Shown here one piece after another: positions 496-51,933 of a stretch of 64,000 bases of DNA. The stretch comes from Hyperoplus lanceolatus (taxonomy: Eukaryota > Chordata > Actinopteri > Uranoscopiformes > Ammodytidae): positions 28,931,001 through 28,995,000 of the forward strand of contig CM049406.2 of NCBI GenBank assembly GCA_026929865.2. The letters run 5' to 3'. Below the pieces are notes generated by a model, which saw only the letters and a program-made list of their open reading frames with translations, was not told the origin of the DNA and ran no database searches. A program made the translations under genes and the position numbers. Positions within the stretch are counted from its first letter, which is position 1; the number at the start of each line of letters is the position of its first letter.

Positions 496-1281
496 ATGAC
501 CCCACTCACCCAGGCAGATCCGGAGCTTTCTATCTTGAAGGCTGAGCTTCAGTCTATTGAGAGCCTTATTCACCAAGTCCTTCAGCGGCAGTCCTCTTTG
601 GTTTCCTGGATGGCCGTGCTGGAGCATTTTCCACTCCGGAGCTCTCAGCCGTCGGCTAGCGGTGTTTCTATCCCTCCGGTTTCTGCTCCGCCTTCCAGTG
701 CTTCATGGTCGTGTGTCGTCAAGAAGGGCAGACGAATTTCCCCTCTTCACTCGCCAGGTCCCGTGCTGTTGCACAATTATTTTGCTCCGCTGGAGGAGCT
801 AGATGGGGCTGCTGAGCCTGCGGCTGGCGCTGCATTCTCCCGATCCGAGTCGCCAGTCCCATCCCGCTCCTTGTTGACTCAGCGGCGTTCAAGTTCCCAG
901 TCCACTCCCCAGGGTAGACGCCGTCCACCAGCTCCATCCAGACGTGAGTTCCATGTTCATCCCGTTCATCCCTCAGTGCCTGTACAAAATGATGTCCCCG
1001 AGATCGCTGCAGCTGGCGATGACATATGCTGTACAGGTGCTGCTCACTCTCGCAGCTATGCCCCGCCCCTCACATCCAAGCTGTCACTCACATCCAAGCT
1101 GTCACTTATAGGTGACTCCATTATCAGATACCTTCACGTACCTGGTGCCTTCACCTATTGCCTTTCTGGAGGAAAGGTATGTGACATCATAGAGCTATCA
1201 CCTGCCCTCATCGACCGCCACCCTACAGCCCACACTGTCATCTTACACATTGGGACAAATGATATAATGAACAAACAATCG
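496..1281 (+). pseudogene. LINE ORF1, N-terminal part with esterase blocks
   Basis: The ORF opens with ATG at 496. The N-terminus (residues about 8-32) has leucine/isoleucine spacing that suggests a short coiled coil. Residues 45-190 are Ser/Pro/Arg-rich and probably disordered. From residue 202 an SGNH-hydrolase fold begins: block I GDS at 206-208 (Ser208 would be the nucleophile) and block III GTND at 253-256. Fish CR1/L2-type LINEs carry such an esterase-like ORF1, thought to bind RNA or membranes; its role is inferred, not shown here. A short tandem duplication (SKLSLT-SKLSL, residues 195-204) precedes block I. Homology stops at about 1281, just after GTNDIMNK, where foreign sequence begins. 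The catalytic DxxH block is found displaced at 3093-3293. Confidence 0.8.
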
Positions 1282-1318
1282 CATACACTCTATGCTCAAT
1301 TAGAGAGTTTGTCCATCC

Positions 1319-1888
1319 AAAATGTTTACTAAAAGCTAAGCCAATCTCTTTTTGATCATTGAGAGTGTGACCATTTAATTTGATCTGAGTGGGAACTGTG
1401 CTAGAATTATTTTTATTATAGTTCACAGCTTTCCAAAATAGTGCAGGGTTAGAGTAGCAGTTTGAGATAAATTCAAGGTAGTATTCAGATTAGGCTTTCC
1501 TGACCATGGCTGTGCATTTATTCCTAAGGTGTCTAAAAATTGTCCAATTGGTATTATCTCCTGAGCGTCTAGCTACAGACCATGCTTTATTTCTCTCGGA
1601 AAATAAATCAGATAGTTCACTTGTAAAACAGGGGTTTGATCTATTTTTTACTCTATGTTTTTGTAGGGGTGCATGCTTGTTTATAATTGAGGTGAAAGTA
1701 TTGATGAAATGGTCTAAGGCTAACTCAACACTCGAAATTTGCGTAGTCAGTTGAATGTCACTATGATGGAGATCACTTAAAAAGGCTTGCTCACTAAAAC
1801 CTTTAAAATTACGCTTAATTATGATTTTAGGTTGAGATCTTTTTAAATGAATACTTCTGATACAGGCCACTGGGCAGTGATCACGCAT
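1319..1888 (-). pseudogene. Inverted fragment of LINE ORF2 (EN-RT linker)
   Basis: On the - strand this piece encodes, in two frames (1490-1888 and about 1319-1426), a protein closely matching the + strand linker at 4110-4680: shared landmarks are DHCPVACIRS, IIKRNFKGF, SELSDLFSERNKAW and NYNKNNSSTVPTQIK. It lacks both the endonuclease and the RT, so it is an internal slice of the same LINE family lying backwards inside ORF1. It is not an exact copy (for example IHLKRS against INLKRS), which suggests it came from another family member or diverged after duplication. An internal slice with neither LINE end is hard to explain by one target-primed insertion. Confidence 0.8.
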
Positions 1889-1895
1889 TTCTAGT

Positions 1896-2403
1896 GCAAT
1901 ATAAAGTCATAAATTAGTTTGTTGAATCATCATCTGTGTTTTGGAACTCTTGTTTTATAATCTAAGTATCTTTAAGAACACTAATCACGTTACTTGGTGG
2001 GTCAGTAATGAAACTGAAAGTAGATATAATATTGCCAATAGCCTATATAAATAAAAACAGAAGGCCCAAACAGCGTCCAAATGAGCTAAAATCCTAAATA
2101 CAATAAACAGTAACATGGCACACTTATTTCAAGGTAAGCTCTAATTGATTATTAATTTTTTCGCACGTTTACATGTTTTGAGGCCGACACACTCTGCCCG
2201 GGCTCAGCTGACAGCTGAGTTGTCAGCTGAGCCGGTGTGGAACACAGTGCAGAGGTTCTAGTGTTAACCATGGTCGAAAATACTACCATAGCCTAGATAC
2301 TGATTTTTTTTAAAGATATAGAAAATATAGACAGCGGAGGAGATGAAGATTGTTTACAGCAATTATTTTCATCATGAATGACTTGTGGCAGTTCCATGCG
2401 CAA
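1896..2403. other. Unassigned DNA inside split LINE ORF1
   Basis: No coding capacity and no family recognised. It contains the perfect hairpin at 2201-2233, listed separately. Confidence 0.4.
2201..2233. repeat. Perfect 13-bp hairpin
   Basis: GGCTCAGCTGACA (2201-2213) is followed by a 7-nt loop and its exact reverse complement (2221-2233). It is GC-rich in an AT-rich surround. It could be the end or centre of a degraded TIR element; no function can be assigned. Confidence 0.8.
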
Positions 2404-2909
2404 CAGGGATGTCACTCGTGCCCGTTTGCTTTACGGAAGGAAATGTGGGGCTTTGTATCTCTGGCGATGCCACAGCGATCGCAGGGACTTTCACTTGTGT
2501 CATTAAACTTATAAATCTGACTGTATTTCATATCACAGGGACACAGTGATGACTGTATTTAATAACAAACTGATAAAAACGATCCGACTGTAGGCTATAG
2601 TGTATCACATAAAGTATTTTCATATTGACGGACATCGCATCCATTCAGTTAATGCTAATTGTCAAGTCAGTTAGATGACTAAAAAGTAGGCTACTTGTTC
2701 ATATAGTCTGAACACTTTGTGAATCAGTGGTATTCTGCTAAAATATATAATAGCCTAAGCATACTTTAAATATACGTGATATACACTGTACAGTTGGATC
2801 GTTTTGAACAGTTTGTTATTAAATACAGTCATCGCTGTGCCCGTTTGATATGAAATACAGTCAGATTTTTTAGTTAAATGACACAAGTGAGAGCTGAAAC
2901 ATCCCTATG
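2404..2909. repeat. Foldback (inverted-repeat) element
   Basis: About 130 bp at 2477-2608 reappear inverted at 2776-2903, including the stretches around TCTGACTGTATTTCATATCA and GACTGTATTTAATAACAAAC, with an unrelated spacer of about 165 bp. The outer ends CAGGGATG (2404) and CATCCCTATG (2900) also match inverted. Arm identity looks high but contains substitutions. No ORF is present, so this is a non-autonomous foldback or MITE-type repeat of unknown superfamily; no clean TSD was found. Confidence 0.7.
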
Positions 2910-3092
2910 TTAGAGCTAAGAAGGCTCTGAGGGCGCTCCAGACCAACCTTACCAACGTATGACGTACAAAAGAGATTCGTAGCAAAGAACGTTTCAGGAA
3001 ACAGGCAAAACGTTAAGTAGGAACTCTACTTAGGGGCTACGAATGACGTAGCGTTAAGAAGGCTCTAATAAGGATTTGGGAAACCGGCCCCA
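2910..3092. other. Unassigned repeat-like end before ORF1 resumes
   Basis: Two near-identical words, 'AAGAAGGCTCT', occur at about 2918 and 3056. The stretch ends in AAACCGGCCCC directly where the LINE ORF1 resumes. It resembles a TE terminus, but the partner end was not found. Confidence 0.3.
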
Positions 3093-3293
3093 GAGCGCTT
3101 CAGTCGCCTCCTGAGTCTTCATGACTGGCTGAAGTCCTTCTGCTCTTCAAACATGCTGGGCTTCATCAGCAACTTTGACTCTTTTTGGACCAGACACGAG
3201 CTCTTTAAATCTGACGGCCTCCATCCCAACACCAAAGGTGTAAGAGAACTAACCAATAACTTCATTCAGCACATTGCATTTAATCTGGATTGA
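3093..3293 (+). pseudogene. LINE ORF1, C-terminal part with DxxH block
   Basis: An open frame of 66 codons plus stop (TGA 3291-3293) resumes ORF1. It contains DGLHPNTKG, the Asp/His (DxxH) block that completes an SGNH catalytic set with the GDS and GTND blocks at 496-1281. Around 40 residues that should connect the two parts appear to be missing, so the foreign DNA replaced sequence as well as splitting the gene. ORF2 starts 13 nt downstream (ATG 3307), a tight ORF1/ORF2 spacing. Confidence 0.8.
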
Positions 3294-3306
3294 TATTTAC
3301 CACAGC

Positions 3307-4098
3307 ATGACCCCATCAGAAGAACCTCCATTAAAAAAGATCCCCCCCCCCGCTCAACATGAATTATACTCCCCTTCCATCTGTGCTGCAAACCTTCCTC
3401 CAGCTCTGGACATCACACCTGACTGCCCTCTCTCACCTCTAATGACCCACCCATCTGCTGCTTCTAACGTTGGCTCCCTCTACAGACACAAACCTGTATT
3501 GTATGACCCTGAAAAACAAACCATGCTTCCTAGCTCTAAACTAAATTCCCCACAAATTCTCAAATCAAGAAAGGGCTTGGGTTTTCTTCATCTAAATATT
3601 AGAAGTTTATTGCAGCATGATAAATTAGACCACATAAAGATTTTAGTGTCCCAGGCAGACCCAGATGTATTGATTCTGACTGAATCCTGGTTAAAGAAGA
3701 GTACAGATGACTCTATTGTGGCAATTAATGATTATAACTTATTCAGAATAGACAGAAACGCAAGGGGTGGGGGAGTGGCTGTCTATGTTAAATCCTGTTA
3801 TTCTGTAACACTTTTACATGCTGTCTCTGTTCCAAATTGTTTTGAATTTAACGTGCTAGAATTATCTTTATCGTCAAATGATTCTTTTGTTGTAATTGGT
3901 GTGTATAGGCCCCCTTCAGCTGTAACTAGCTCCTTAAACGATCTAACACATACGCTCTCCAGTTATGTAAATAGAGAGGTAATTGTTATGGGTGATTTTA
4001 ACGTTGATTGGCTTTCTGGTGCCTCTGAACCTTTCAAAGAAATCTGTAGCAACGTTAATCTTACACAATTAATAACTGAGCCCACAAGTCTCAGCTGA
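3307..4098 (+). pseudogene. LINE ORF2, APE-type endonuclease domain
   Basis: From the ATG at 3307 the frame encodes 263 residues. After a Pro-rich leader (residues 1-90) comes an apurinic-endonuclease-like domain: LNIRS with Asn97, LTES with Glu126, VYRPPS at 199-204, MGDFN with Asp230/Asn232. These correspond to metal-binding and catalytic positions of APE-like LINE endonucleases, which nick target DNA to prime reverse transcription. The domain is cut short: after TEPTSLS the frame stops (TGA about 4096), while the terminal SDHCP block reappears in another frame at about 4115. The missing stretch normally holds the Asp of the xDxxL motif, so the nuclease is non-functional by deletion plus frameshift. 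Confidence 0.85.
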
Positions 4099-4729
4099 TG
4101 TTTTTGATCTTGGGATTAGTGATCACTGCCCAGTGGCCTGTATAAGAAGTATTAATTTAAAAAGATCTGAACCTAAAATCATAATTAAGCGTAATTTTAA
4201 AGGTTTTAATGAGCAAGCCTTTTTAAGTGATCTCCGTCATAGTGACATTCAACTCACTACGGAAATTTTGGATGTTGAGTTAGCCTTAGACTATTTCATC
4301 AATACTTTCACCTCAATTATAAACAAGCATGCGCTCCTTAAAAAGCATAGGGTAAAAAGTAGATCAAACCCCTGGTTTACAAGTGAACTGTCTGATTTAT
4401 TTTCCGAAAGAAATAAAGCATGGTCTCTAGCTAGACGCTCTGGAGATAATTCCAATTGGACTATTTTTAGACAATTTAGGAATAAGTGCACAGCCATGAT
4501 GAGGAAAGCCAAATCCGAATATTACCTTAAATTAATCTCCGACTGCTACTCTAACCCTGCACTATTTTGGAAAGCTGTGAACTATAATAAAAACAATTCT
4601 AGCACAGTTCCCACTCAGATCAAATTAAATGATCACACTCTCAATGATCAAAAAGAGATTAAATTAACATTTTATAGCTGCTGGTCAACTCTTTCAGAAT
4701 GGAGGATGTACACCTTCTACAACCAGTAG
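4099..4729 (+). pseudogene. LINE ORF2, endonuclease end and EN-RT linker
   Basis: It begins with the endonuclease-terminal ISDHCPV block (about 4112-4135) and continues through the basic linker (SERNKAWSLARRSGD, RKAKSEYYLK) that connects endonuclease and RT in CR1/L2-type ORF2. The open frame ends in a stop at 4727-4729 where the reading frame drifts. The same segment exists inverted at 1319-1888. Confidence 0.8.
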
Positions 4730-4737
4730 TAACGTAC

Positions 4738-5573
4738 CGCCTGTCTCTCAAACTCCTATTTTCAGCCTTGATCTTCTTCCCACAAGTGTTGTTGTAGATG
4801 CGCTCCTCGCCATCAACCCCAAGAAGTACATGGTAGAGGACAATTTGGACCAGTTTTCAATCAAGCTTTCGACACATATAATATCAAAACAAATAACCCA
4901 TATTTTTAATCTTTCCATCTCCTCTGGAATAGTGCCTAAAATTTGGAAAAAAGCTCACGTAATTCCTTTACATAAAGGTGGTGACAAAAATAATCTTAAT
5001 AACTACAGGCCAATTTCCAAACTCCCATGCCTGGCAAAAATTCTAGAATCACTGATTAATAATCAGTTAAAAACATTTCTAACTAGTGCTTCCATTTTGA
5101 GCCCGTACCAATCTGGTTTTAGGGCAGGTCACAGTACTGTCTCTGCTGTGACTTTGGTTGTAGACAACATTGTTAGGGCATTAGACAAGAAAAAGCACTG
5201 TGCAGCACTTTTTATTGATCTTTCAAAGGCCTTAGATACTGTTGACCACCATTTGCTTTTATAGAGGCTGCATGACATTGGCTTTGATCATTCTGCATGT
5301 AGCTGGTTTAAGGATTATCTCTCTAGTAGACAGCAGTCAGTTAAACTCGGAAGATACCAATCTGAGTTTTTAACTGTTACACATGGTGTCCCACAGGGCT
5401 CAATTTTAGGTCCAGTTCTTTTCACAATTTATATAAATAACATTGTTTCATCGCTAAAAAACTGTCACGCCCATCTATAAGCTGACGACACAGTACTGTA
5501 TTGCATTTCCGATTCGGTGCACTAATCTATTCAGAACCTACAAAGCTCTTTTAACACCCTGCAGGACTGTCTA
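4738..5573 (+). pseudogene. LINE ORF2, reverse transcriptase fingers/palm with stop codons
   Basis: RT blocks are easily recognised: VIPLHKGGDKN, NYRPISKLPC, YQSGFRAGHST, FIDLSKALDTVDH (palm block A, first catalytic Asp), HGVPQGSILGP, and ADDT (block C). A TAG at 5262-5264 interrupts shortly after block A. A TAA at 5478-5480 replaces the tyrosine codon of the YADD active-site box, so the protein would end immediately before the two catalytic aspartates. A further stop follows at about 5523. The 4830-5264 frame is the longest open piece. These lesions make the RT inactive. Family identity as non-LTR RT is secure; the exact clade is not. Confidence 0.88.
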
Positions 5574-22271: not shown

Positions 22272-22687
22272 CTAGAACTGCAAGCAGTTGTGAACGGGGG
22301 CCAAGCCTCCCACGGGACTCAGGATCGGGTGTCGTCGTCCGCGGCGCCGGCCCCTCGCTTCACGGAATCTGGGGATGTAAAGTTTTTGAATGTGGGATGT
22401 TTGGTTTGGGATTTATAGACCAAAAGGCAAAAAAATCCCAGAGAAAGATGCTGTGTTTTTGGCGCCCCCTTTTGGAGCAATTTAAGGAAAAAGTAGAACC
22501 AACCTGAGAACCATAGGACAAACACATTTGTGAAGTTTGGTGTTAATAGGATGAATCGTTTTGGATTTAGGAGCAGTTTGGTACAAGGTAGCTAATGTGC
22601 AAATCTTTAAAGCGCTACCGTTTGGTCTCCCGACGGTCGTAGAAAATTTATTTATACAACTTTTGCTCGTGGGAGTCGGTAGAGCTT
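22272..22687 (+). repeat. Unclassified self-repetitive repeat, copy 2 (truncated)
   Basis: It starts with the same AACTAGAACTGCAAGCA head as copy 1, in the same orientation, and follows copy 1 head-to-tail. It ends at a Tc1 fragment near 22688. Confidence 0.7.
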
Positions 22688-23358
22688 TTTTTTTTTGGTG
22701 CAAATTGCGCTGAATTGTTGAGCGATGTACAGATACACAATCTGCAGCCAGATGTTCTTGCAGGTCTTTGGAGGTGATCTGTGGGTTGTGTGCAACCATT
22801 CTCACAATCCTCCACCTATGCCGCTTCCTGACAACGTTCCCTACAGTCGAAATTGACAATTGAAATCTTTGGGAAAGCTTCTTGTAGCCTTCCCCTAAAC
22901 CATGACAATGAACAATCTTTGTTTTTCAGATCTTTTGGGAGCTGTTTTGATGATCCCATTCTGTCTCACTTCAGCAGAGTCAAAGAGAAGTGCAACTTGC
23001 ATTTAGGCACCTAAAATACATTTTCTCATGATTAAACAGACATTTCTATGAGGTTCAAGGCTTAACAACATAATCCAACCAACTTTGTGTTTAAAGTCAT
23101 CAGTTTTACATGCTGTTACAGGCATTAAAATCAACAAAACCACAAGGGTTCCTATATTTTTGCGCTGCCAGTTTTTCACATTTCATTTTATTTCATACAA
23201 CCAAATACTGCTTTTCAAAAAATCTTTGTTTGGAAAACATCCCAGTACTTAGCTGTTCCTGGTAAATTAAAGACATACCACTTTTATATTTTTTTTGTGA
23301 AAGCAGAGTCAATTATAATGCCGGCTGAGAGGGGTTCCCAAACGTTTTCATATGACTG
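22688..23358 (-). pseudogene. Tc1-like transposase, N-terminal fragment with one TIR
   Basis: The outer end CAGTCATATGAAAACG with an adjoining TA (23359-23360) marks the 5' terminus on the - strand. The coding remnant on - contains ISTVGNVVRKRHRWRIVRMV and TSKDLQEHLAADCVSVHRST, the second part of the Tc1 paired-type helix-turn-helix DNA-binding domain. The DDE catalytic domain and the other TIR are missing, cut off by the repeat at 22272-22687. Several frame breaks are present upstream of 22859. It cannot encode an active enzyme. Confidence 0.8.
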
Positions 23359-25135: not shown

Positions 25136-26275
25136 GATAGACCTACACAAAGTGGCGCATAATTGTGAAGTGGAAGGAAAATGCAACATGGTTTTCTTTT
25201 CTTTTTATAAATACAAAACTGAAATATGTGGCGTGCATTAGTATTCAGCCCCCCTGAGTCAATACGTTGTAGAACCACCTATCACTGCAATAACAGCTGC
25301 AAGTCTATTGGGGTATGTCTCTACCAGCTTTGCACATCTACAAAATGACATTTTTGCCCATTCATCTTTGCAAAATAGCTCAAGCTTCAGATTCAGCATC
25401 AGATTGGAAAGCATCTATGAACAAAATTTTCAAGTCTTTCCAGATATTCTCAATTGTATTTAGGTCTGGACTTTGACCAGGCCATTCCAACACTTGCCTA
25501 TGTTTTGATCTAAACCATTCCATTGTAGATCTGGCTGTATGTATAAGGTCATTGTCCTGCTGGAAAGTGAACTTCCACCCCACTCTCAAGTCTGTGGCAG
25601 ACTCTAACAGGTTGTGTGCCCTATATTTGGTATATATATTTTGCATGTAGGCCAAAAACTTAAATTTTGGTCTCATCTGACCAGAGCACCTTCCTCCAAC
25701 CCTTGCCACAAACCATTAGGGGGACACAGCATATTCAGATGGGACCAAACTTGAAGTTTTTGGCCTAAATGCAAAATGCAATGTGTGGCGGAAAACTAAC
25801 ACTGCACCCTGAACACACCATCCCTACCGTGAAACATGGTGGTGGTAGCATCATGCTGTGGGGGTCCTTTTCTTCAGCAGGGACAGGGAAGCTGGTCAGA
25901 GTTGATAGGAAGACGGATGAGCCGAATACAGGGCAGAAAAACCTATTAGAGTCTGCAAAAGACTTGAGAATTGTGTGGAGGTTCACTTTCAAGGAGGACT
26001 ACTACCCTAAACATACAGCCATATCTACAATGGAATGGTTTAGATCAAAGCATAGTCATGTGTTAGAATGGCCCAGCCAAAGTCCAGACCTAAATACAAT
26101 TGAGAATATCTGGAAAGATTTGAAAATTGCTGTTCACAGACGCTTTTAAATCATATTTAATTTTCATTCCACTTCACAAATATGCGCCACTTTGTGTTGG
26201 TCTATCACATGAAATCCCAATAAAATAAATGTATGTGTGTGGATTTAACGTGACAAAATGTGGAAAAGTTCAAGC
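25131..26275. mobile_element. Foldback Tc1-like element
   Basis: Both outer parts are the same transposon end in opposite orientation: CATGTGATAGACC...ACACAAAGTGGCGCAT at the left and its inverse at the right (about 26180-26211). On - (25380-25709) and on + (25769-26149) the C-terminal part of a Tc1 transposase is read outward from the centre: shared STMEWFRSKH and SPDLNTIENIWKDLK, with the terminal Glu of the DDE triad. The + copy also has the HTIPTVKHGGGSIMLWGSFS segment. The N-terminal DNA-binding domain is absent. The left terminus is lost in the (CA)n run. This is a palindromic derivative, inactive by itself. Confidence 0.85.
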
Positions 26276-34924: not shown

Positions 34925-36416
34925 CAGTCCCCCTCCATAAGTATCGGAACAGTGAGGCCAATTCCTTTATTTTTGCTGTAGACTGGAAACATTTGTGTGT
35001 TACACCAAAAGATGAATATGAGACAATAGCTCAACATTTCAGCTTTCATTTCCAGGTATTCACATCTGGATCCGATAAACAACTGAGAAGATATCATTAT
35101 TTGTGAAGGAACACCACATTTTTAGGCGAGCAAAAGTATTGGAACAGATGGACTTTAAATAAATTAAAGTGAACAAAACATACTAGTTTGTCGCAAATCC
35201 TTTGCTTGCAATAACCGTATCAAGCCTGTGACCCATTGACATCACAAAACTTTTGCATTCTTCTTTTGTGGTGCTTTTCCAGGCTTTCAACGCAGCCTCA
35301 TTCAGTTGTTGTTTGTGTTAGGGGGTTACTCTCTTAAGTCTCCTCTTTGGCAGATAAAATGCATGCTCTATAGCGTTTAAGTCTGGAGATTGACTTAGCC
35401 AGTCTAAAACCTTCCACTTCTTGCCCCTGATTAACTCCTTTGTTGTGTTTTGGGTCATTATCTTGCTGCATGATGGAGGATCTTCCAATCAGTTTGGTTG
35501 CATCTTTCCTTAAATTGTCAGACAAAAGGTTTCTGTAAACTTCTGAGTTCATTTTGCTGTTGCCATCATGTGTTACATCATCAATGAAGAATAATGAGCC
35601 CGTCCCAGAAGAAGCCATGCAAGCCCAAGCCATGACATTGCCTCCACCGTGTTTCACAGATGAGCCTGTATGTTTGGGATCATGAGTAGATCCTTTCTTT
35701 CTCCAAACTTTAGCCTTTCCATCACTTTGGTAAAGGTTCATCTTGACAACAACACAGTAACACATGATGGCAACAGCAAAATTAACTTAGAAGTCTACAG
35801 AAACATTCTGTCTGCCAATTTAAAGAAAGATGCAACCAAACTGATTGGAAGATGCTCCATCATGCAGCAAGATAATGATCAAAAAAACTGCAAAAACAAC
35901 AAAGGAGTTAATCAGGGGCAAGAAGTGAAAGGTTTTAGACTGGCCAAGTCAATCTCCAGACTTAAACCCTATAGAGCATGCATTTTACCTGCTAAAGAGG
36001 AGACTTAAGACAGTAACCCCCTAACACAAACAGCAACTGAATGAGGCTGCGGTGAAAGCCTGGAAAAGCACCACAAAAGAAGAATGCAAAAGTTTTGTGA
36101 TGTCAATGGGTCACAGGCTTGATGCAGTTATTGCAAGCAAAGTATTTGCGACAAAATATTATGTTTTATTCACTTTAATTTATTTAAAGTCCATCTGTTC
36201 CAATACTTTTGCTCGCCTAAAAATGTGGTGTTCCTTTACAAATAATAATATCTTCTCAGGTGTGTATCAGATCCAGATGTGAATACCTGGAAATGAAAGC
36301 TGAAATGTTGAGCTATTGTCTCATATTCATCGTTTGGTGTCAAACCCAAATGTTTCCAGTCTACAGCAAAAATAAAGGAATTGGCCTCACTGTTCCGATA
36401 CTTAAGGATGGGACTG
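34925..36416. mobile_element. Foldback Tc1-like element, 1492 bp
   Basis: TA at 34923-34924 and 36417-36418 flanks CAGTCCCCCTCCATAAGTAT and its near-inverse (ACTTAAGGATGGGACTG). The two arms, about 34925-35577 and 35756-36416, are inverted copies of the 3' half of a Tc1 transposon, around a spacer of about 180 bp. Each arm encodes, reading outward, transposase C-terminal sequence: - strand 35334-35765 and + strand 35670-36008 share VTHDGNSK, EVYRN and IMQQDND (second catalytic Asp), and + 36052-36282 carries the terminal AWKSTTKEECKSF block. The helix-turn-helix half is missing. Non-autonomous, mobilisable only if both ends are recognised in trans. Confidence 0.88.
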
Positions 36417-37035: not shown

Positions 37036-38250
37036 TTAGTGGTTGCAGAGCTGAGCAGCTTTTAACAGATTTTTTAGGTTAGATTTGAAGACTCTGAGAG
37101 AGCTACTGCCCCTTACGGCGTCAGGTAAGGTATTCCACTGGTTTGTGGCTCTTACAGAAAAAGCAGATTGCCCCGCTACAGTGCGGCGAAATGGTATGGT
37201 ACAATCTCGTATGGAGGATATTCTAGTGGATCTGATGGAATTTGACGAGCGAGCGTGGACAAAAACACATAATGACTGTGGGGCCAAACCATTTAAAATT
37301 TTATAGACCATACACAAATTGACGAATAACCTAAAATTCTCAAAGCTCAATAACTCATGTTTGTCAAGTATCCTACAATGATGATAACGAATTGGCTTTT
37401 TGTCCAGTGTTTTTAAGGTTTGTTTGTATAAAGACTCCAGAGGTCTCAAAGTAGATTCACCAGCCTGCCCCCAGCAGGTGATACAATATGACATGCGGGA
37501 CAAAATCATGGCGTGCATAAATATCTTGGCTGCATCCAGAGAGAGACAATTTCTGATGTGTTTAAAATTAACTAAATTGTATTTTATGGTTTTAACCATT
37601 TTTTTGACATGTTTCTTAAATTTTAAATTTGGATCCAGAAACAGGCCAAGATATTTAAATTCAGTAACTATATCAATTCGTTCACCTTTAATGAGAATCT
37701 CAACATCAGGGATTTGTACCATGGTTTTAGAAAAAAACATACATTTTGTTTTGTTTACATTTAAACTCAAACATGATTGATCAAGCCAAACAGTGATTCT
37801 CTCCAGTGCAGTTGTTAACTTAGCAGCTGCTAAGTCAGCTGTTTTAGCATGTACATGAACAACAGTGTCATCTGCATACATCTGCAGATCGACGTCAGCA
37901 CACTGTTCAGCAAGATCATTAATATAAAGACTAAATAATAAAGGACCTAATACCGAGCCTTGTGGGACTCCCATAGTACATGTCCTGTAACTGGACTGTG
38001 CATCATAGACTTTAACACATTGCCTCCTGTTTGATAAATATGACGACATCCAAGCCAGAGCTCTAGGCGAAAAATTAAATTTAGAAAGTTTTGATATTAA
38101 GACACTGTGGTTAACTGTATCAAATGCTTTACGCAGGTCTAAAAATACAGCACCAACTACTCCGCCTTTATCGAGCCGTGATTTAATTTGCTCTATTAAA
38201 TGTAAGGAGGCAGTCTCGGTTGAATGGTTCGCTCTAAAACCAAATTGCAT
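37036..38250 (-). pseudogene. LINE ORF2, RT palm to C-terminus (frame 2)
   Basis: 404 codons beginning MQFGFRANHS, which is mid-RT rather than a real start: the preceding RT blocks lie in the frame above, joined by an overlap at 38196-38250. Motifs in order: FLDLRKAFDTVNH (palm A, residues 36-48), MGVPQGSVLGPLLF (93-106), YADD (125-128, catalytic), LNVNKTKCMFF, FKYLGLFLDP, and C-terminal NQWNTLPDAVR with a stop at 37036-37038. All catalytic residues are intact. The neighbouring 3' UTR follows directly. The frameshift corresponds to one missing (or two extra) nucleotides around GTCTACATTGTATGC on -. Confidence 0.9.
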
Positions 38251-40712
38251 ACAATGTAGACCAAATTGCTGGTGTTAAGAAATGAGGTCAGTTGTTCAAT
38301 GACAACCTTTTCAGCAATTTTTGAAAATACTGGCAGTATGCTTATAGGTCGATAGTTACTAGCTTCAAGGCGGTCTCCAGATTTAAAAACAGGTGTGACA
38401 ATGGCACATTTCCAGTCATCAGGAAAAAGACAACGTTTAAAAGAGAGATTAATTAGGTGAGTGACAGGACAGGATAAAATATCCTTATGTGACTTAACAA
38501 ACTTGGTGTCAAAGTGAAAAGCATCTCTAGATTTTGAGCTTTTCAGAGAGCTGATGATTTTTTGTACTTGTGACACATTTGTTTCTACCAGTTCAAAGAC
38601 CGGGGCTGTTTTATCTAGTGGAGCAACATCCAGTTTTCTTGTTGGAAATTTTTTCCCAAGTTCACATACAGATTCAAGAAAAAAATTATTAAGAGCAGAA
38701 GCAACAACACGATTATCTTCAATTAACTCTCCCTGTACTTTTAATATAAGATCTCCAATAGATTTATGGTTTCTCCTTGTGAGATCATCAATATTTTCCC
38801 ATATCAATTTAATGTTGCCTCTTGCCTCATTTAAAATATTGACATAAAATCGGGATTTAGCTGATCTTAGTTCTTGGATAACTTTGTTCCTCAAACCTTT
38901 ATAAACCAGCATATCAATTTCTCTTCTAGTTTTAATTGCCTTCCTCAGTGCAGCATCTCTAGTTTTCATCAGCTTCCATAAATTCTCATTGAACCAAGGT
39001 AAATTATTTTTGTTTTTAAATTGTGTCTTGACACTCACACTAAATCTCTCTTTCACAGAATTAATTTTGTGAGTTAAAGTGTTACACCCATAGTTCAGAT
39101 CATCAGAGGATAATACATCATCCCAATTCAAACTGTTAATTTCACTTGCAAATTCTTCTTGTTTAGCTTTCGGTATGCACTTGCAGATTTTTGTCTTATT
39201 TGCTGTGTTCCTAAATCTATTTTTAGACAGTTTTCTAGCACACAGAGTTAAATTATGGTCAGATAGGCCGGTAATTAAATTATAACTTTTCGTTATTCTT
39301 TCTGCTCTGTTTGTAAATATCAAGTCAATTTGTGTACTTGAGCATTTTGTAATCCTAGTTAGGCCTTTTACTAGTTGTTCTAAGTGGAATTTTTCGGTAA
39401 TCATTTTTAGTTTTTTCCTTTTGGATTTATCCTCCCAATTCACATTAAAATCACCCATAAGCAGTAGTTCTTTGTTGTGATTGCACTCATTCAAGACTTC
39501 AGCAAGTTGATCATAAAAAGTGTCATCTGCAGAAGGAGGCCTATAGACACCTATAATGTTAAAAGACATTTGTTTAGACAAAATGATTTTTATCCCAACA
39601 TATTCCAAAGTGCTACCCGCTTTATAAACCTCGCGCTCACATTTAATGCCTTCTCTTACATAAAAAAGCACCCCCCCTCCCCTTCCATCTGGTCTGTCTC
39701 GTCTAAAACATTGATATCCAGGCACTGTAAATACACTTGAGGGAGTAGACTGTTTCAACCACGTCTCAGTCAGACAAAGAAAGTCCATATTTGAGTCAGA
39801 CAGAAGATGAATTAGCTGATTGCTTTTTGGAGTAATGCTCCTTATGTTGAATTGTCCGTCGAATAACCCCCTTGGTTTCAGCTTCGGGTCCCACAAAACT
39901 TTCGCATGATTGACAGTTTGAAAAGTTTTGAATAACCTCTGTCTCTTCACTGCGGGGTTACAACGCGCAGCGGAATCGTCAGCAGATTTAGTAGGACACA
40001 CAGTGGACCTATCAAGGTCTCCACAGTCCAGGAACGATAAGTTATTCATTAAGTCACCATGTCCGAGATTTAAATTATAAGTGGAGAAGCCCGACTCAGG
40101 GGGTTCATGCTCACTCACCACCGGTAGCACCGAGTGAATCGCGGACACAGGGACTGCGCCGGGGCTCTGCAGCGCTCCAGTGGTCACTGGCCCAGGATTT
40201 AGCTGAACATCTCCGGCCAGCAGGAGCAGTGTGAGGAAAAGACCTGCCATTCTCCGGAACGGTGTGATGGATGAGCGACCCACTGGGACAGTAATGCGCT
40301 CCGGCAGTCGGGCTCGCCCGAGCCGCAGGACAGATGAATAGATCGCATAATATCCCAGTAAATTGCAATGCAAACTCACTGGAGAAACGTCGCTTGGCCA
40401 CAAACCGGCGCCTGCTCCAGGTTCAGCCGCCAGGAGCGCACGGTGGCACGGGTGGTTTCCATCAGCGTTGATTTCTCTGGCCAGGTAGATACGCACAGGT
40501 GATGCGATAGTGAGTAGCAACAATAGCCCAGAAAGCACTCCATAAAACACATCCCAGGCCTTTTTGCTGTTAAAAGACTGCTTTGCCCTCAGTACAGTTT
40601 TTAATTGGCATGTTCTGCGGCATAAACGGCCTCCTTGATGTAAAAGGACGCGCGGGGTCGTAGGACCTGCCACACCGCAACTCCGCGCTGCCGCCATGTT
40701 GAGCATTACCAT
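38196..40712 (-). CDS. LINE ORF2, leader, endonuclease and RT fingers (frame 1)
   Basis: 838 codons. Residues 53-71 and 156-166 are hydrophobic; the second is followed by GDVQLNPGP (167-175). The APE-type endonuclease spans about 286-500: FNIRS (Asn289), LTETW (Glu316), GVYRPPS (388-394), MGDFN (Asp421, Asn423), QIDLIF (Asp463), LSDHN (Asp485, His486), all canonical catalytic positions present. A basic linker (500-720) leads to RT fingers: PVFKSGD (775-781) and NYRPISILP (786-794). After LNTSNLVY the frame leaves the RT, and the next RT block continues in 37036-38250. Met155 (40248-40250), just before the second hydrophobic segment, is a plausible true start; the first 154 residues may be 5' UTR read-through. 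The product would nick and reverse-transcribe at genomic target sites. Confidence 0.88.
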   Translation of the reverse strand: MVMLNMAAARSCGVAGPTTPRVLLHQGGRLCRRTCQLKTVLRAKQSFNSKKAWDVFYGVLSGLLLLLTIASPVRIYLAREINADGNHPCHRALLAAEPGAGAGLWPSDVSPVSLHCNLLGYYAIYSSVLRLGRARLPERITVPVGRSSITPFRRMAGLFLTLLLLAGDVQLNPGPVTTGALQSPGAVPVSAIHSVLPVVSEHEPPESGFSTYNLNLGHGDLMNNLSFLDCGDLDRSTVCPTKSADDSAARCNPAVKRQRLFKTFQTVNHAKVLWDPKLKPRGLFDGQFNIRSITPKSNQLIHLLSDSNMDFLCLTETWLKQSTPSSVFTVPGYQCFRRDRPDGRGGGVLFYVREGIKCEREVYKAGSTLEYVGIKIILSKQMSFNIIGVYRPPSADDTFYDQLAEVLNECNHNKELLLMGDFNVNWEDKSKRKKLKMITEKFHLEQLVKGLTRITKCSSTQIDLIFTNRAERITKSYNLITGLSDHNLTLCARKLSKNRFRNTANKTKICKCIPKAKQEEFASEINSLNWDDVLSSDDLNYGCNTLTHKINSVKERFSVSVKTQFKNKNNLPWFNENLWKLMKTRDAALRKAIKTRREIDMLVYKGLRNKVIQELRSAKSRFYVNILNEARGNIKLIWENIDDLTRRNHKSIGDLILKVQGELIEDNRVVASALNNFFLESVCELGKKFPTRKLDVAPLDKTAPVFELVETNVSQVQKIISSLKSSKSRDAFHFDTKFVKSHKDILSCPVTHLINLSFKRCLFPDDWKCAIVTPVFKSGDRLEASNYRPISILPVFSKIAEKVVIEQLTSFLNTSNLVYIVCNLVLERTIQPRLPPYI
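40188..40250 (-). other. Hydrophobic leader plus 2A-like motif in LINE ORF2
   Basis: Met-Ala-Gly-Leu-Phe followed by a Leu-rich run ends directly in GDVQLNPGP. The 2A consensus is D-V/I-E-x-N-P-G-P, a ribosome-skipping signal acting between the final Gly and Pro. Here Gln replaces Glu while N-P-G-P is exact. 2A-like motifs attached to a signal-like leader are known in LINEs of several animals. Whether this variant skips is untested. Confidence 0.7.
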
Positions 40713-50557: not shown

Positions 50558-50565
50558 AATTATGA

Positions 50566-51925
50566 GGTAACACTTTACAATAAGGTACACAAAATTGTAG
50601 TAGCTACTACATACCTACTACATAGTTTTTTTTTTTTTGCGCTACCTATGTGTTAGGTAGCACAAAAAAAAAAACCCTATGTGTTAGGTAGCACATAGGG
50701 TTTTTTTTTTGTGCTACCTATGTGTTAGGTAGCACAAAAAAAAAACCCTATGTGTTACCTACTACATAGTTTTTTTTTTGCGCTACCTATGTGTTAGGTA
50801 GCACAAAAAAAAAACCTATGTGTTAGGTAGCACATAGGGTTTTTTTTTTGTGCTACCTATGTGTTAGGTAGCACAAAAAAAAACCCTATGTGTTACCTAC
50901 TACATAGTTTTTTTTTTTTTGCGCTACCTATGTGTTAGTTAGCACAAAAAAAAAAACGTATGTGTTACCTACTACATATTTTTTTTTTTTTGCGCTACCT
51001 ATGTGTTAGGTAGCACAAAAAAAAAACCTATGTGTTACCTACTACATAGTTTTTTTTTTTGCGCTACCTATGTGTTAGGTAGCACAAAAAAAAAAACCCT
51101 ATGTGTTAGGTAGCACATAGGTTTTTTTTTGTTACCTATGTGTTAGGTAGCACAAAAAAAAACCCTATGTGTTACCTACTACATAGTTTTTTTTTTCGCT
51201 ACCTATGTGTTAGTTAGCACAAAAAAAAAACCCTATGTGTTACCTATTTTTTTTTTTTTTTTCGCTACCTATGTGTTAGGTAGCACAAAAAAAAAACTAT
51301 ATAGTACGTACCACATAGTTTTTTTTTTTTGCGCTACCTAAGAGATAGGTAGCGCAAAAAAAAACTATGTGGTAGGTAACACATAGGGTTTTTTTTTGTG
51401 CTACCTAACACATAGGTAGCGCAAAAAAAAAAACTATGTAGTAGGTAACACATAGGGTTTTTTTTTTGTGCTACCTAACACATAGGTAGCGCAAAAAAAA
51501 AAAACTATGTAGTAGGTAACACATAGGGTTTTTTTTTTGTGCTACCTAACACATAGGTAGCGCAAAAAAAAAAAACTATGTTGTAGGTAACACATAGGGT
51601 TTTTTTTTGGTGCTACCTAACACATAGGTAGCACAAAAAAAAACCCTATGTGCTACCTAACACATAGGGTTTTTTTTTTTGTGCTACCTAACACATAGGT
51701 AGCGCAAAAAAAAAAAACTATGTAGTAGGTAACACATAGGGTTTTTTTTTTTGTGCTACCTAACACATAGGTAGCGCAAAAAAAAAAAAAAAACTATGTA
51801 GTAGGTAACACATAGGGGTTTTTTTTTTGTGCTACCTAACACATAGGTAGCGCAAAAAAAAAAAACTATGTAGTAGGTATGTAGTAGCTACTACAATTTT
51901 GTGTACCTTATTGTAAAGTGTTACC
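50566..51925. mobile_element. Palindromic hairpin-array element with 60-bp perfect TIRs
   Basis: Exact 8-bp duplication AATTATGA (50558-50565 and 51926-51933) flanks 60-bp inverted repeats with no mismatch (50566-50625 and 51866-51925, starting GGTAACACTTTACAATAAGG). The interior is about 18 units of roughly 70 bp: a T-run, a hairpin with stem GCTACCTA/TAGGTAGC and a 5-nt loop, an A-run, then a second CCCTATGTG-type dyad. In the left half loops read TGTGT; in the right half the units are reverse complements with loop ACACA, so the entire element is one giant inverted repeat built of smaller ones. The 8-bp TSD suggests hAT-mediated insertion. No ORF at all. Confidence 0.95.
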
Positions 51926-51933
51926 AATTATGA

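Follow-up and report, generated by a model that had tools for sequence, protein, structure and literature searches.

Results and Discussion

Structure of the Element in the Window

The window, a stretch of 64,000 nucleotides located at C12:28931001-28995000 of the Hyperoplus lanceolatus assembly (807 Mb, 527 contigs), contains a 1360-bp insertion at positions 50566–51925 which is bounded by identical 8-bp TSDs. The two copies of AATTATGA lie at 50558–50565 (left) and 51926–51933 (right), in agreement with the exact 8-bp TSD recorded in the initial annotation. Elsewhere in the window, long frames resembling LINE endonuclease and reverse transcriptase were found at 37036–40712 (− strand) and 3253–5264 (+ strand), and fragments of Tc1-like transposase at 22482–22925, 25380–26149 and 35334–36008, all of them named by eye. 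Neither an Rfam match at the gathering threshold nor, with ARAGORN (bacterial code), a tRNA was obtained in the window.

The terminal inverted repeats of the element are perfect, as had been noted, and extend over 72 bp (left, 50566–50637, + strand; right, 51854–51925, − strand) rather than over the 60 bp given initially; the first T-run comes after the initial 60 bp. The left arm (50626–51296, + strand) is an array of inverted-dimer units of about 70 bp, composed of a T-run, a hairpin with a TGTGT loop, an A-run and a spacer, and the right arm (51319–51865, − strand) consists of the left-arm units reversed, mostly with ACACA loops. Between the arms lies the axis segment CTATATAGTACGTACCACATAG (51297–51318), where unit orientation flips, and it is adjoined by CTATATAG, which is common to other copies. 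Inside the element 18 T-runs and 18 A-runs were counted, with a mean T-run spacing of 70.2 bp, and TRF on the window gave 17.9 copies of period 71, so that the description of about 18 T-run/hairpin/A-run units of about 70 bp was correct. The right-half units are, likewise as described, reverse complements of those of the left half, with a single orientation switch at about 51297–51318. This switch is placed some 60 bp to the right of the geometric centre, so that the symmetry of the whole window copy is inexact. The nested inverted repeats of the initial annotation were recovered.

A single unit folded as a DNA hairpin with an energy of −16.7 kcal/mol (z −6.8 against 200 shuffles). The predicted RNA fold of the whole element had an energy of −975.8 kcal/mol, a value computed without a shuffle control, and judged by this fold long dsRNA from the element is possible. 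The motif CTACTACATA was present twice at each end and also in the spacers. When the window was shuffled 100 times, the 21-bp terminus was never matched.

Long tandem-repeat inverted ends, a feature of the foldback class, cover most of the element, and two further features of the class, TSDs and a repeat number that varies among copies and between the ends of one copy, were found in the family described below. The element is thus very probably a non-autonomous DNA transposon of the foldback type, the arms of which gain and lose units each within itself.

Copies of the Family in the Genome

The exact 32-bp terminus was found 626 times genome-wide (318 and 308 times on the two strands, over 807 Mb), and the reversed-pattern control of the same 32 bp gave no match over 807 Mb. 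Together with the TSDs of the 56 copies compared, this bears out the view that the insertion is a mobile element. Copies were fetched from the matches listed on contigs C1–C8, at least one terminus or inner end being exact in each, and because of this selection the sample leans to young copies. The 65 loci fetched represent 63 distinct places, since L056 and L057 are extended versions of L045 and L050, and of these 55 were two-ended and were kept, giving 56 copies with that of the window. Left out were L041, L044, L045/L056, L049, L071, L073 and L074, in which the second end was absent within 4 mismatches or was not facing, and also L068, for which the sequence taken lay on the wrong side of the terminus. 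The TSDs were identical in 44 of the 56 copies, had one mismatch in nine and more in three.

The copies ranged in length from 244 to 5898 bp. A stretch of at least 60 bp unlike the array was absent from 48 of them, which accordingly lack a unique middle domain of the kind known from Tetris, a domain that the class does not require, and was present in the other eight. Six of the seven copies longer than 2.7 kb are among these eight, L059 being the one without such a stretch. By eye the foreign stretches resemble nested insertions, situated within the arrays or next to them. Copies without the array and with unrelated interiors, a case raised in the initial annotation, were not encountered among the 56 compared.

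The 21-bp terminus had no exact match in the viral_contigs collection and the first 75 bp had none in the plasmids collection, neither collection being suited to testing for a vertebrate element.

Two Array Types and a Proposed Origin of the Unit

Two types of array were distinguished: type I, resembling the window copy and built of 70-bp units (310 exact inner ends), and type II, built of 28-bp units (124 exact inner ends). A copy was taken as type I when a T-run was present within bp 56–70 of either end, and 45 of the 56 copies passed this rule, including L075, which has the appearance of type II; L078 has three segments only. Segments fitting no unit class were omitted from unit counts.

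In each 70-bp unit the 28-bp repeat forms an inverted dimer, joined at 3–6 shared bases (joint overlaps: a+rc(a), 4; rc(a)+b, 6; rc(a)+a, 3). The type I hairpin links the start of the 28-bp monomer, with four shared bases, to the end of that monomer's reverse complement, and the type I spacers are similar joints with six and three. From these joints we infer that a direct repeat became the inverted dimers through strand switching, with the quasi-palindromic core CCTA(ACACA)TAGG as the switch point, and unit composition, rather than a tree, suggests that type II is the older of the two types.

T-runs and A-runs alternate throughout in the window copy and in L052, and with one break in L033. Among the 11 copies not classed as type I, one switch in run order was counted in L031, L036, L048, L053, L058 and L066, two in L072, three in L069, seven in L057, nine in L042 and 11 in L070; inserts contribute to the switches in L057, L058, L066, L070 and L072.

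Candidate Transposases

The TSD length alone does not decide the superfamily. The target profile of the family (43 sites, both strands) is A-rich and then T-rich, with A at 0.50 and 0.52 at TSD positions 1 and 2 and T at 0.52 and 0.50 at positions 7 and 8. The element ends begin with GG, and these suit Merlin at least as well as they do hAT.

An origin in Merlin, with its IS1016/IS1595-type transposase, can be put forward tentatively. In the available text of PMC8101967, Merlin ends begin with GG and the TSD is 8 or 9 bp long, so that both the GG ends and the 8-bp TSDs of the family are as described for this group, and 11 places with the domain are present in the genome. Nevertheless, the flanks read at three of these 11 places (L096, L097 and L098) contained only partial, chance-like matches to the end, and none of the three domain places on C1–C3 has an exact terminus closer than 20 kb.

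The initial annotation had assigned the element to the hAT superfamily, with the TSD length as sole support, and movement by a hAT transposase now appears doubtful. Besides the 8-bp TSDs, it is favoured by the abundance of hAT domains in the genome, where 150 of the 722 candidates were scored and several have long open frames, and by the hAT label carried by the foldback-like Atlantic cod MITE gadMor-hAT-1784 in the available text of PMC12368964. However, hAT elements of the Ac/Hermes type prefer nTnnnnAn targets, according to the parts of PMC10368747 and PMC8961557 dealing with target choice, and in the present family T at TSD position 2 and A at position 7 each reach 0.23; this preference is therefore absent, in a test that covers the Ac/Hermes type and not all hAT. 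The GG ends also speak against hAT, and with 150 of the 722 candidates scored, none of the 28 scored domain places on C1–C3 had an exact terminus inside 20 kb, 48.9 kb being the shortest distance. The 3.3 kb read around L099, a young hAT copy, held only chance-level partial matches to the end.

A transposase or autonomous partner tied to these ends was not found among the places covered (three of 11 Merlin flanks; 150 of 722 hAT candidates scored, with one copy read). In the Merlin flanks L096–L098 and in L099 the matches to the ends had at most 3 mismatches in 12 bases, which is about chance. Among termini deviating at base 22 (51 matches) or at base 34 (nine matches), none paired with another in facing orientation at the distance of an element. 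Of the nine, two face other family termini: C4:7034528, read as L066, is an array with an insert, and C13:17253400 faces a type II end at C13:17251071. Nor did the frames read in the eight insert-bearing copies and in the one-ended L056 resemble a partner, being Tc1-like in L058 and L087, proline-rich and repetitive in L079 and otherwise like those of other insertions by eye, with hAT-like or other repeat ends.

A 569-aa frame with a hAT domain was found with equal score in four copies, at C8:4091255 (L099), C13:29949177, C15:29486957 and C21:25400189. This hAT family is young and perhaps active; the 3.3 kb around the copy that was read contained no clear match to the ends studied here.

Behaviour of the Palindrome

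The window insertion had been called young, and its identical TSDs and perfect inverted ends agree with this. In the 20 copies picked by exact inner ends only (L076–L095), the outer 40 bp differed from the window terminus at three of 1600 bases, and the TSDs were identical in 18. The unit strings of all 45 type I copies, in turn, differ from one another. Since near-identical ends are accompanied by arrays that are all different, the unit number must change much faster than single bases.

Among the 45 type I copies, one orientation switch was found in 39, three in four and none in two, as compared with a mean of 15.8 under shuffled unit orientation. Three switches occur within one identical TSD pair in L059 and L079, an arrangement suggestive of another palindrome inside the array. 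In the 39 copies with one switch the numbers of units to the left and to the right are unrelated (Spearman 0.007, p 0.97), the ratio of the short to the long arm has a median of 0.63 and is at least 0.9 in a single copy, and L032 has 23 units on the left and one on the right. The arms thus change length independently of each other.

The axis was studied in 37 elements (74 arms), which also served for the spacers. At a distance of up to two segments from the axis, the variant CTATATAG accounted for 25 of 55 S spacers, versus 19 of 465 elsewhere (Fisher 5e-16). It is common to 19 of the 37 elements and is lacking in 18, and since it is shared beside the axis in 19 the palindrome was probably formed once. 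In at least half of the 37 elements the axis looks inherited rather than remade; more than one origin of the axis is possible.

The fraction of B spacers at outer positions 1–8 was 0.29, 0.10, 0.71, 0.07, 0.30, 0.09, 0.27 and 0.07, odd positions being favoured. Among the 67 arms with four or more spacers the commonest outer start was SSBS (34 arms), and the four spacers nearest to the axis were SSSS in 37 of 67 arms. Spacer type agreed between the arms more often than in the shuffles at axis positions 2–4 and outer positions 2, 4 and 6, and less often at outer positions 1, 3, 5 and 7. Because of this mixed result the claim is limited to a regularity of odd and even positions and a scarcity of B spacers close to the axis, and does not extend to a general freezing of the outer array.

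For rare variants 38 elements (76 arms) were used. The same rare variant recurred within an arm at a lag of one unit 10 times (5.5 expected) and at a lag of four units 10 times (3.7 expected), modest excesses of about 2.2 and 3.4 sd with 16 lags examined; at the other lags no clear excess was seen for rare variants of the same arm, and some were below expectation. The one- and four-unit recurrence fits local duplication.

Hairpin-templated (snap-back) synthesis, or conversion between arms, would have one arm repeatedly copied from the other and the palindrome remade each time. A palindromic whole element with perfect 72-bp ends and a unit folding strongly as a hairpin count in its favour, as do the triple switches of L059 and L079. 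Nevertheless it is improbable, given arm lengths that are uncorrelated over the 39 copies, with L032 as an extreme; moreover, rare variants were shared between the arms of one element in 41 of 272 cases (0.151), against a between-element mean of 0.140 (largest value 0.195), and agreement over the outer six spacers was 0.714 within and 0.690 between elements. Of the two modes of growth suggested in the initial annotation, slippage within an arm therefore fits the data, and hairpin-templated synthesis is disfavoured by the arm lengths and the rare variants.

An assembly artefact or ordinary satellite DNA is hardly credible: homopolymer-rich inverted arrays are difficult to sequence and assemble and the homopolymer runs do differ in length, but family arrays stand at 55 other two-ended, separate places, most with their own TSDs, which makes a one-off assembly error unlikely, and the 90 exact hairpin cores listed on C1 all lie at element termini or at most 1 kb away. 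Of these 90 (3033 exact cores were counted genome-wide), 89 are within 1 kb of an exact 32-bp terminus and the remaining one is 126 bp from a type II end, so that no free satellite array was seen on C1 among the cores listed.

Comparison with Known Elements

Long inverted ends made of short tandem repeats and of variable length are characteristic of the foldback elements FB of Drosophila and TU of sea urchin.

Among the fish elements found, gadMor-hAT-1784 of Atlantic cod is, by description, the nearest in form. In the available text of PMC12368964 it is called a hAT-derived MITE with internally inverted tandem repeats, hAT being the label of its authors; the term "TSD" does not occur in the main text. 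Compared by description, it shares with the present family the fish host, the absence of an ORF, a length of about 1.3 kb, and a palindromic form with two long inverted ends of tandem repeats. It differs in units of 167–169 bp, terminal inverted repeats of about 600 bp and a short internal sequence in the consensus.

Tetris of Drosophila virilis, in the available text of PMC4079207, is a non-autonomous foldback element with TSDs of 8–10 bp and repeats that share a stretch with the outer terminal domain. Its tandem repeats, however, are 220 bp long, and it has a middle domain, satellite-like arrays and three copies of complete structure, whereas the present family has 70-bp inverted-dimer units, no middle, hundreds of ends and no free arrays seen on C1. 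Galileo of Drosophila, in the portions of PMC3573991 and PMC3688188 on its repeats, resembles the family in that repeat number differs between the ends of one copy with independent dynamics, and its tandem repeats hold extra transposase sites. Unlike the family, it belongs to the P superfamily, has a known transposase and, in one subfamily, direct repeats of about 210 bp (PMC3573991). Hermes, a hAT element, has an 8-bp TSD and subterminal repeats that bind transposase, two of them forming a quasi-palindrome, and is set apart by its nTnnnnAn preference, 17-bp imperfect terminal inverted repeats and dissimilar ends, all according to the available text of PMC10368747.

Judged from the same portions of these sources, long inverted ends of tandem repeats (Tetris, Galileo) and number changes independent between ends (Galileo) were already known. 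The present family differs in that only array lies between the ends in 48 of 56 copies, that the unit is an inverted dimer in its own right, and that in a young sample the arms change independently around an axis which is frequently shared. A prior description of the family was not found in the open-licence literature searched, nor were terminus strings of 12–21 letters; the family may be listed in Repbase or Dfam.

Proposed Mechanism and Significance

The ends, the TSDs and the many copies are observed, and from these we infer a transposase and cut-and-paste movement. A transposase made elsewhere would recognise the ends of about 60 bp, excise the element and insert it with an 8-bp TSD, the interior consisting of the subterminal repeat only. 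An older direct repeat of 28 bp, of the kind seen in type II copies, appears to have been turned into 70-bp inverted dimers via strand switching at the quasi-palindromic core, and the whole element would have become palindromic probably once, in the founder. Since then each arm has gained and lost whole units alone, whether by replication slippage, by unequal exchange or by gap repair. The motif CTACTACATA may, on the analogy of Galileo and Hermes, be an extra transposase-binding site.

A bolder picture, which we regard as speculative and rather unlikely in its entirety, is that of a mobile hypermutable repeat. Transposition would scatter near-identical ends, and the array would be rebuilt in unit steps at such speed that no two copies are alike; it would act as a platform for loading transposase, with the unit number tuning transposition, and its units would have arisen when strand switching made a chain of inverted dimers out of a direct repeat.

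Instability is to be expected of long palindromes, and yet this family spread recently with elements made of little but palindrome. It offers a natural experiment on the growth and shrinkage of inverted repeats in the germ line, and on a possible role of subterminal repeats in promoting transposition. The dispersed inverted repeats may also be sites of ectopic inversion, as proposed for the similar Atlantic cod MITE in the available text of PMC12368964.

Atypical Copies

In L056 (301 and 412) a second terminus begins within a short array after ACCCTATG and runs into other DNA; a facing end was looked for over 10 kb, with 4 mismatches allowed, and none was found. The insert of L079 (element bases 559–3944) lies in the array and holds the proline-rich repetitive open frame mentioned above, of about 520 aa. 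In L074 (301 and 1596) the two termini have the same orientation, and their 8-bp flanks, CTTTGAAT and ATTCAAAG, are reverse complements, a pattern that looks like the inversion of one end of a single insertion.
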